Source: Halobacillus yeomjeoni
GTDB lineage: Bacteria > Bacillota > Bacilli > Bacillales > Halobacillaceae
Direction: 5' to 3'
Assembly: GCF_020171525.1 (NCBI RefSeq)
Contig: NZ_JAIVAI010000002.1
Span: 124,001-188,000, forward strand
Length of the DNA: 64,000 nucleotides
Each line of letters starts with the position of its first letter. Position 1 is the first letter of the stretch. Shown in pieces: positions 10,056 through 59,177 of the stretch. Position numbers and translations under genes: made by a program. The notes under the pieces were generated by a model. That model had not been told where the DNA came from. It saw only the letters and a program-made list of their open reading frames with translations, and ran no database searches.

Positions 10056-11049
10056 ATGACGACATTCCAAGCATACCGTCTCTATGATGATAAAGATTCC
10101 ATAAAAGGTGAAATGAAGACCCTCCCTTTAAAAGATCTTCCTTCCAGTGATGTATTGATCAAAATAAAGTATTCCAGCTTGAATTACAAAGACGCATTGG
10201 CAACCAGGGAGGATAATCCGATCATTGAAAAATATCCGATCACTCCTGGTATTGACCTGGCTGGAGAAGTGGTCAAATCCCGATCACCTCGTTTCAATAA
10301 AGGAGATAGAGTCATCGCGACAAGCTATGAGATCGGGGTTTCTCATGATGGAGGATTCAGTGAATATGCAAGCATTCCAGAAGAATGGATCGTTCCCCTT
10401 CCGGAAGGTTTGACGTTGAAAGAATCGATGATTTATGGAACAGCAGGGTTTACAGGCTGCCCTTTCCATCCATCGATTGGAACAAGCCGGTCTTACTCCC
10501 GATCAAGGGCCTATTCTTGTCACAGGAGCTTCCGGTGGCGTCGGTAGTATAGCTGTAGCCATGCTTGCTAAACGAGGATATGCGGTGAAAGCAAGTACAG
10601 GGAATCCTGAAGACAACAAGGAATATTTGAAAAAGCTCGGTGCAAATGAAGTTCTATCCAGAAAAGACATATTTAATGGGGAAATAAAACCACTGGCCAG
10701 AGAACGCTTTGCAGGTGCGGTCGATCCAGTCGGCGGAGAACCGTCAGCCTCAATCCTGAGTCAGCTTCAATATGAAGGTTCAGTGGCTCTCAGTGGATTA
10801 ACGGGAGGAGCGAAAATTCCCACGAATGTTTACCCATTCATCCTCAGGGGTATTAGTCTTATTGGCATCGATTCGGTGAACTGTCCAATGGAAACGAGGA
10901 AAAGGGTCTGGCTCCGTATGGCCAATGATTTAAAAATAAAAGAGTGCTTTGATGAAATCGAAAACCTCCTTTCATTGGATGAGGTACCGGAGAGACTGCA
11001 AGACCTTCTAAATAATCAAAAACGCGGAAGAATGGTCGTAAAACTTTAA
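10056..11049 (+). pseudogene. YhdH/YhfP-type quinone oxidoreductase, broken by a +1 frameshift
   Basis: The medium-chain dehydrogenase/reductase (acrylyl-CoA reductase/YhfP group) is split into two frames. The first part (from 10056, MTTFQAYRLYDD) runs to GTAGFT at 10452-10454. One extra G at 10455/10456 then shifts the frame, and reading resumes as AALSIHRLEQAGL to the stop at 11049. Without that base the ORF is 330 codons, the exact length I expect for YhfP. Both halves keep family motifs: SLNYKDALA and PGIDLAGEV in the catalytic domain, and VTGASGGVGS in the NADPH site. The rest shows no decay, so the change is recent or a sequencing error. As written, the protein would be truncated at about 163 residues and inactive. 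Confidence 0.85.
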
Positions 11050-11087: not shown

Positions 11088-11116
11088 TTGACTTTTCATG
11101 AATTGCATATTATAAT
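11088..11116 (+). promoter_or_regulatory. Strong sigma-A promoter
   Basis: TTGACT (11088-11093), a 17-base spacer and TATAAT (11111-11116). Start is predicted near 11123. No ORF with a ribosome binding site follows for about 375 bases. Confidence 0.8.
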
Positions 11117-11122
11117 TATTTC

Positions 11123-11426
11123 TTAGTGCCTTCGCTAAAAGGTAACTCGGAAAAAGAAAAGAGTGATTTGTATGAGACTGGCATTCTGCTATGTTTTGAT
11201 ACAACTTAATCACACTGGATCAGCTTCGGAGCTGTAAGGATGCAATAGAGGTAGGGATTGCGTCGTTTAAGTTGAAAAACTACCATGTAGAATTTTGAAC
11301 CGCGGCAAGAGGATGAGAAATATAACATCCTGTAAAAGGTAAAAAAACCTATTAAAAAAATAAGATTTTTTGTTTTTCCGAAGTAACACATAGAAGCGGG
11401 TTGGACGATTGTCCGGCCCGCTTTTT
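11123..11426 (+). ncRNA. Candidate structured non-coding RNA or long 5' leader, ~300 nt
   Basis: A near-consensus promoter ends just upstream and a strong terminator closes the region, with no credible ORF between. Several helices can be drawn: TTAGTG/CGCTAA at the predicted 5' end; a three-way junction with P1 CAACTTAA/TTAAGTTG (11202-11209 with 11267-11274), P2 CAGCT/AGCTG (11221-11234) and P3 GATGCAAT/ATTGCGTC (11239-11264); AGGATG/CATCCT near 11309-11331; then A/T-rich sequence and the terminator. I compared it from memory with 6S, RNase P, SRP, tmRNA and T-box RNAs and the common riboswitch classes and could not assign it. It could be a trans-acting RNA or an attenuated leader of the gene at 11501. 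Confidence 0.55.
11395..11426 (+). terminator. Terminator of the candidate RNA
   Basis: AGCGGGTTGGAC pairs over 12 bp (two G-T pairs) with GTCCGGCCCGCT around a GATT loop, followed by T5. Confidence 0.88.
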
Positions 11427-27984: not shown

Positions 27985-28214
27985 ATTAAAAATCGTTGAA
28001 AAAGAGAGTAGCTTTTATGGATCGGACAGCGAATCAGGGGTGGTGGGAGCCTGAGACGAAACCAGAAAGTGAACCGGACTTTTGAGATGTGATCCTGAAC
28101 TTATAGTAGGGATTGCCGGGGGATTCTCCCTCGTTAACAAATCGAGTGGCCTGTTGGCTATAAGAGTGGTACCGCGAGCAAACCTCGTCTCTTCAGTGAG
28201 ACGAGGTTTTTTTA
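27985..28214 (+). promoter_or_regulatory. T-box leader controlling argS
   Basis: A T-box riboregulator senses uncharged tRNA and switches between terminator and antiterminator. The invariant AGAGTGGTACCGCG is at 28163-28176, directly before the terminator. A long stem I region is closed by GGATC/GATCC, with CAGG-GGTGGTGGGAG-CCTG at its tip. In the 3' part of stem I the sequence GAAC-CGG-ACT offers CGG, an arginine codon, as the likely specifier; that reading is inferred by position. Low charged tRNA-Arg would then raise argS expression. Confidence 0.9.
28180..28214 (+). terminator. Regulated terminator of the T-box leader
   Basis: AACCTCGTCTC pairs with GAGACGAGGTT, followed by T7. Confidence 0.92.
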
Positions 28215-37639: not shown

Positions 37640-37766
37640 GATCCTCTCATCTTCTAGGATAAAGTTCATCCTACAGGAATTGGCACCGTTCTCGTCAATC
37701 CGCAGATTGATTCGATGGTTGCCGGGCATCAAAGGGCCAGTCCCTCCGCCTCTCTGGATAAGAAGT
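37640..37766 (-). promoter_or_regulatory. SAM-I (S-box) riboswitch upstream of msrA
   Basis: On the minus strand the conserved S-box elements occur in order: P1 TCTTATC with GATGAGA, AGAGAGGCGGAGGGACTGGCC, CCTTTGATGCCCGGCAACC, GGTGCCAATTCC and the closing strand. SAM binding should stabilise the terminator. The only gene downstream is msrA. A reading frame on the plus strand here (37572-37778) is a shadow. Confidence 0.93.
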
Positions 37767-58952: not shown

Positions 58953-58995
58953 AAAAAAAGCCTCCCCATCATGTTGGGGAGGCTTTCGATTTTTG
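58953..58995 (+). terminator. Terminator of the DUF1206 gene
   Basis: AAAGCCTCCCCA pairs with TGGGGAGGCTTT, followed by CGATTTTTG. Confidence 0.85.
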
Positions 58996-59177
58996 CCGCG
59001 AATGTACCGACGACCACATTCGTCGTTTAGATTTTTAAATCATATACTTCGTCTTACGCAAACAGCTCATCGCTCTCCTACTATATCATCCTTTGATACA
59101 GAAGGCAATCAGTATTTCATACACACATCCGATTGTGCTATACTGAATCAATTAGAAAATGTACGGGAGGAACCAAT

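Follow-up and report, generated by a model that had tools for sequence, protein, structure and literature searches.

Between a gene for a zinc-type dehydrogenase and one for a protein without a Pfam match, the 64,000-nucleotide stretch of Halobacillus yeomjeoni DNA analysed here (the window) contains a short region that a first-pass annotation had called an unassigned structured RNA, matching no standard class and a candidate for a new one. Is there an RNA at this place, from which strand is it read, to which family does it belong and how might it act? We think it probable, with some reserve, that the feature is a chromosomal, independently transcribed RNA of the BsrC family on the plus strand, that it represents a long subtype of this family marked by the motif CCGCGGC, and that it acts in trans through its P3 loop and the GGA of its P2 loop.

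Boundaries and fold of the RNA

The promoter ahead of the region (Table 1) agrees with the sigma-A consensus at 11 of 12 positions, in keeping with the near-perfect promoter that had been proposed; a match of this grade taken alone stands at chance level (shuffles of a 601-base stretch gave a mean of 1.7), and a promoter-like pair occupies the same position in relatives, among those listed. From this promoter, the 5' end of the RNA would lie at about 11123. At the other end, 6 of the 11 terminator pairs carry compensatory double changes among 15 close relatives, which bears out the proposed terminator with a stem of 11 rather than 12 bp. A simple terminator scan called no terminator at 11396-11426, perhaps because the stem can be extended into the T-run. 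The fold of the plus strand surpasses that of all 100 shuffled sequences (z -6.08), and this, along with compensatory changes in homologues, upholds the claim of a structured RNA of about 300 nt on that strand.

Two reading frames were considered and rejected. A small ATG frame at 11172-11237 (21 codons) is absent from the other families inspected, in which the linkers vary by insertions and deletions, and an antisense ORF of 124 amino acids is not credible, as it runs into the neighbouring gene encoded on the opposite strand. No credible ORF is thus left in the roughly 305 nt of the RNA, as had been stated at the outset. The zinc-type (MDR) dehydrogenase gene beside it (window 10056-11049) is itself split over two overlapping frames, with ADH_N at 10056-10547 and ADH_zinc_N at 10435-11049, a frameshift that points to a disrupted gene or else to a mistake in the assembly.

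The central part of the RNA was compared among homologues, from which 77 distinct cores were parsed (L074, L075, L084, L085 and L093 were left out, having an extra P2 base or a shift) and 50 of the 77 placed in an ungapped alignment of 82 columns, A1. Across A1, helices P1, P2 and P3 are formed in 89.2% of 950 cells, compared with 78.2% after shuffling, and 14 of the 19 junction pairs show double changes, so that covariance in homologues, named as a check in the first-pass annotation, is indeed present. The covariation score is 0.411; shuffled sequences give 0.195, and sliding the partners gives no more than 0.145. These controls do not amount to probabilities, given the kinship of the sequences and the derivation of the structure from the same alignment. 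Double changes occur at 6 of 7 pairs of P1, the outermost two of which are unpaired in 34 and 25 of the 50 homologues, and at 4 of 8 pairs of P3, a stem in which 97.0% of cells are paired and 12 of 400 are unpaired. All 50 sequences keep the P2-loop GGA unchanged, and 9 of the 10 columns of the P3 loop, AGAGGUAGGG, are likewise invariant; the P3 loop is altered in the diverged members L155, L156, L195 and L196. RNAalifold returns the same three helices, somewhat shorter, with an additional junction pair C15-G69 that is U-A in two sequences.

Outside the core, the support differs from helix to helix. Scored over the 15 close relatives, the window structure comprises 638 cells, of which 98.9% are paired, and double changes are confined to the terminator; the core in this set is nearly invariant and uninformative either way, and two summary counts were no better than shuffles (81 and 75 of 500). 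The two strands of the outer helix form an inverted repeat of 14 nt with 93% complementarity, whose CGGA/TCCG part recurs in 15 of 15 relatives. For P0, 24 long-type sequences scored 6.15 with their own partner strand and 5.12 with those of others (shuffled mean 4.63), and none of 20000 permutations did as well; this set excludes the near-identical L003-L027 and six long-type loci without a recognisable 5' motif, and includes three restored by hand. Comparative analysis thereby shows a three-way junction of P1-P3 that, in this lineage, is enclosed by P0 and the outer helix and has CCGCGGC, two small hairpins and the terminator after it. A three-way junction had been claimed before, its helices given without positions, and one supported by covariation exists, which may or may not be made of the helices originally meant; the minimum-energy fold of the single sequence lacks the junction as drawn here.

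Table 1. Features of the RNA locus, in window coordinates.
Feature	Position	Strand	Details and support
RNA	11123-11426	+	Length about 305 nt, with both ends deduced from the promoter and the terminator
Sigma-A type promoter	11088-11116	+	-35 TTGACT 11088-11093, 17-nt spacer, -10 TATAAT 11111-11116
5' hairpin	11127-11144	+	TGCCTT/AAGGTA; in 15 relatives 97.7% of cells paired, zero double changes
Outer long-range helix	11147-11160 with 11368-11381	+	5' strand TCGGAAAAAGAAAA; inverted repeat
Helix P0	11183-11189 with 11287-11293	+	ATTCTGC with GTAGAAT; permutation test
Helix P1	11202-11208 with 11268-11274	+	CAACTTA with TAAGTTG; covariation
Hairpin P2	11221-11234	+	Conserved GGA in loop; double changes at 4 of 4 pairs
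Hairpin P3	11239-11264	+	Loop AGAGGTAGGG at 11247-11256; 50 homologues
CCGCGGC motif	11300-11306	+	Marker of long subtype
Hairpin P4	11310-11331	+	AGGATG/CATCCT; sequence and by-eye inspection of relatives
Hairpin P5	11337-11350	+	AGGT/ACCT; sequence and by-eye inspection of relatives
Intrinsic terminator	11396-11426	+	11-bp stem GCGGGTTGGAC, GATT loop, GTCCGGCCCGC, then TTTTT; covariation in 15 relatives
Rfam RF01410 (BsrC) match	11190-11276	-	Reverse complement of most of P1-P3; 69.3 bits, gathering 38

Identity and strand of the BsrC match

A search of the window with cmscan (Rfam 15), another check proposed with the first-pass annotation, returned a known class, the outcome that had been set there as a refutation: RF01410 (BsrC), over the full model length 1-87 (E 4.1e-12 in a 521-base scan around the RNA); no other Rfam family, RF01766 included, appeared in the 521-base scan at E up to 1. 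BsrC was reportedly named in the 2009 study by Saito. The match lies on the strand opposite to the RNA described above and spans 87 of its approximately 305 nt, such that most of what the first-pass annotation had described (strand, length, junction, promoter, terminator) is absent from the entry as matched. Elsewhere in the window, Rfam matches comprise BsrF, a sister entry of BsrC, at 58960-59073 (-, 63.8 bits), a T-box leader at 27987-28195 (+) and a SAM riboswitch at 37644-37764 (-).

Structured RNAs retain G-U pairs on their own strand, and the opposite strand reads these pairs as A-C. The 950 junction cells of A1 comprise 740 Watson-Crick, 107 G-U, 12 A-C and 91 other combinations, so that standard pairs fill 89.2% of cells if the plus strand is read and 79.2% if the minus strand is; in P3 alone, 616 cells hold 498 Watson-Crick pairs, 99 G-U, no A-C and 19 others. 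For 47 of the 50 sequences the plus strand reaches the lower minimum energy, and for all 50 it gives the consensus structure greater stability. Terminators point the same way. Among 167 distinct loci (218 less 2 that were too short and 49 with a core already counted), 93 have an intrinsic terminator in the sense direction no more than 400 nt downstream, compared with 11 in the antisense direction and 6 after shuffling, leaving 74 without a sense terminator meeting the criteria; with duplicates retained, the sense count is 110 of 190, the antisense 12 and the shuffled 5.

The same conflict of strands is seen in B. subtilis 168, in which RF01410 matches at 474413-474499 (-) and 559894-559980 (+). 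At the 474-kb place both flanking ORFs, ydaG and ydaH by published position, are on the plus strand, a promoter (TTGTGT at L131:2232-2237, a 17-nt spacer and TATTAT at 2255-2260) predicts a plus-strand start near 474266, and a plus-strand terminator lies near L131:2620-2650. The predicted start is within 1-2 nt of the start of an Hfq co-immunoprecipitation peak named bsrC, placed at 474265-474410 in the accessible portion of PMC3574147; the peak spans sequence ahead of the core and not the core itself, and strand information was lost in these libraries. A second copy, located between cspC and ydeB, is listed in BSGatlas from an Rfam scan (PMC8208703, as available in part). The available text of PMC5670726 gives, from RNA-seq of P. 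riograndensis, a BsrC transcript of 322 nt, a length nearer to that of the window RNA than to the 87-nt model, and that of PMC4634765 reports that BsrC was not detected by dRNA-seq in B. amyloliquefaciens.

Because G-U far exceeds A-C, the plus strand is the more stable, terminators lie in the sense direction and the B. subtilis peak starts at the plus-sense promoter, RF01410 appears to be an inverted and truncated entry, the reverse complement of part of the RNA. By these comparisons of pairs, folding energy and terminators, the strand modelled in Rfam would not be the one transcribed in the window, and we judge the minus-strand match there to be the complement of the actual RNA. That the modelled strand is nonetheless correct, and that BsrC is a short minus-strand sRNA whose exposed C-rich stretch CCCUACCUCU pairs with G-rich ribosome-binding sites in the manner of C-rich Bacillus sRNAs, seems to us highly improbable. 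RF01410 does exceed its gathering threshold in 205 of 249 genomes of the order (20 with two matches and 2 with three), and C-rich seeds are known in B. subtilis sRNAs (accessible part of PMC8216469); but the pairs vary as G-U and not as A-C on the plus strand, the terminators and the promoter-like pairs ahead of the core are on that strand as well, and strand-specific arrays, in the portion of PMC2784878 available, join bsrC to its upstream gene, which in B. subtilis is on the plus strand.

Read from the plus strand, the window RNA has the features that characterize the family, namely the P1/P2/P3 junction and its loop. Its core is homologous to that of BsrC at ydaG-ydaH and at cspC-ydeB, with the same loop; RF01410 exceeds gathering at the window locus as well as at the two B. 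subtilis sites, the ydaG-ydaH core (L131) falls in the same alignment as the window core, and a plus-strand model, R1, scores 91.6 bits at 11197-11278 (+), with the window sequence part of its training set. Unlike the B. subtilis copies, the window RNA possesses P0, the outer helix and CCGCGGC and has different neighbours, the ydaG-ydaH setting not being that of the window copy; CCGCGGC is absent beside L079, a core of the B. subtilis type, and the sequences that bear it include neither L131 nor L132, the B. subtilis copies. The first-pass annotation was accordingly right about strand, ends and general nature, and wrong in taking the RNA for an unassigned one, this being a long subtype of the BsrC family. 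The literature searched, accessible in part, yielded no function for BsrC and, for BsrC and its locus, no description of a strand inversion or a link to csp genes. If the correction holds, annotation based on RF01410 places BsrC on the wrong strand, such that strand-specific RNA-seq counts and knock-outs miss the RNA; the plus-strand reading also supplies a covariance model, a structure and, in the P3 loop, a clear mutational target for a widespread small RNA of Bacilli.

Distribution and cold-shock neighbours

By blastn, the sequence occurs in 41 of the 61 genomes searched, that of the window counted. With filters stricter than usual, at which some weak matches are lost, R1 found the RNA in 12 of 348 genomes sampled from the whole phylum, every one of them a member of the window's class, and in 123 of 250 genomes sampled from that class. 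RF01410, run on 14 named control genomes, matched B. subtilis only. Plasmid and phage collections held no match to window 11170-11320 at E 1e-5. In one family (f189), the RNA is present in 8 of 8 listed genomes of genus g377 and in 0 of 13 of genus g356.

A recurrent neighbour of the other subtypes is a gene for a cold-shock-domain (CSD) protein. Such a gene is found in the fetched stretch at 29 of 125 loci with a regular core (128 family-labelled loci less L055, L155 and L156, which have none), in 17 of 41 families, compared with a chance expectation of about 0.2% of loci with a CSD gene within 900 nt (59 CSD genes in 12 genomes, about one per megabase). The gene lies on the same strand 296-510 nt upstream at 12 of the 29, on the same strand downstream at 11 (9 at 206-263 nt and 2 at about 680 nt), and in the opposite direction at 6. 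The linked loci are related and do not represent 29 independent events, and the varied arrangements suggest more than one. No CSD neighbour was found at the window copy or at 29 other loci of its family, and CCGCGGC occurs within 120 nt after the core at none of the 29 linked loci. Among short, cspC-type members (L032-L051), many share a conserved upstream region with a promoter-like site, TTGAAG-18-TAAAAT, about 30 nt before the core. A long AT-rich hairpin of the TTCACAT...ATGTGAA type and a T-rich stretch stand between core and csp in L084, L085, L093, L170 and L183, and L180 has a similar AT-rich hairpin ahead of its core.

These neighbours raise the prospect that the RNA arose as a cis-regulatory leader of csp genes and became free-standing later in some lineages, an origin we regard as unlikely. 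The nine downstream cases at 206-263 nt, drawn from four families, place the core ahead of the csp motif KWFN on the same strand, several with an AT-rich hairpin in between, and in preceding csp genes these members resemble the cspA thermoregulator RF01766, an entry that has no match in the window RNA. At the remaining 20 linked loci, however, csp stands upstream, further downstream or in the opposite direction, and 96 of the 125 loci have no csp in the stretch; in the window the terminator separates the RNA from the next ORF, which begins about 75 nt beyond it. On co-transcription with a regulated downstream gene, expected of a riboswitch or leader, this terminator and the copies ahead of csp in other genomes point in different directions. 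New in this analysis are the corrected strand, the covarying junction, the long subtype with its enclosing helix and CCGCGGC, the spread of the RNA through the class and the cold-shock genes near other subtypes, and these neighbours provide a first condition to test.

Mode of action and candidate partners

We infer that the RNA acts in trans, because it has its own promoter and terminator, its P3 loop lacks an intramolecular partner and bsrC is enriched with Hfq, heading the table of Hfq-enriched sRNAs at 53.6-fold in the available part of PMC3574147. The folded scaffold would present the conserved P3 loop and the GGA of P2 for contact with a partner, either another RNA or a protein, and this contact would adjust how targets are translated, or how stable they are, as cells grow or adapt to cold; the outer helices specific to this lineage and the 5' and 3' hairpins may protect the RNA and set its level. 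Over 73 loci, a few with misplaced loops (L032, L166), a search of the flanks for a partner of the P3 loop found none above chance (13.94 versus 14.20 in shuffled flanks), which would leave the loop free for contact in trans. A pairing of the loop with a downstream CUACC, perfect in the genus of the window, was rejected, being no better over the 73 loci than in shuffled flanks.

The G-rich loop, with no partner inside the RNA itself, could instead capture the C-rich seeds of other sRNAs, making the RNA a sponge of the kind that RosA forms for RoxS and FsrA in B. subtilis. RosA, as described in the accessible part of PMC8216469, is likewise a stand-alone RNA with a sigma-A promoter, a terminator and exposed G-rich regions; sequence relation to it was compared by cmscan. 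The distribution of the window RNA nevertheless differs from that of RoxS, the partner of RosA. Of the 250 class genomes, 63 carry RsaE/RoxS, and the genome of the window gave no RF01820 match; 36 of the 123 RNA-bearing genomes have it, leaving 87 with the RNA only and 27 with RoxS only, not the co-occurrence expected of a RosA-type sponge. The duplex computed between the 10-nt loop and B. subtilis RoxS, the C-rich sRNA covered by this comparison, is weak (-6.9 kcal/mol). A sponge is thus rather unlikely.

We likewise doubt, somewhat more strongly, that the RNA sequesters CsrA through the P2-loop GGA and an AAGGAUG at the P2/P3 junction. CsrB/RsmZ-type RNAs are defined by GGA in hairpin loops, a trait that the window-type RNA shares and whose invariance in the homologues would suit a decoy. 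CsrA is also found more often with the RNA (109 of 123 genomes) than without it (45 of 127; Fisher p 7e-19, uncorrected for kinship), that is, in 154 of the 250 genomes of the class, with 14 carrying the RNA only and 82 neither. Against this, the core has only two or three GGA and the P3 loop is not a GGA site, and the RNA, rather than being confined to genomes with CsrA, occurs in those 14 without a CsrA (PF02599) match, one of which, L156, retains the GGA elements. An Hfq match is present in 226 of the 250 class genomes and lacking in 7 of the 123 that bear the RNA. As CsrA, Hfq and RoxS are each missing from some RNA-bearing genomes, none of them is a general partner, and an obligatory role for any of the three is unsupported by their distribution.

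We therefore favour a trans-acting RNA with a universal partner or another one. A wider proposal, which we offer tentatively and with limited confidence, is that BsrC-type RNAs are loop-presenting regulators found throughout Bacilli and ancestrally linked to cold shock, which may use the conserved G-rich loop to reach, in trans, a universal partner distinct from CsrA, Hfq and RoxS (a component of the translation apparatus, for instance) and so aid the adaptation of translation to cold or growth changes, the class having been hidden by an inverted public model. A duplex between the P3 loop and the anti-Shine-Dalgarno sequence, with a computed energy of -8.4 kcal/mol, was set aside, but its GAGGU part is worth noting as one that L155, L156, L195 and L196 do not retain.
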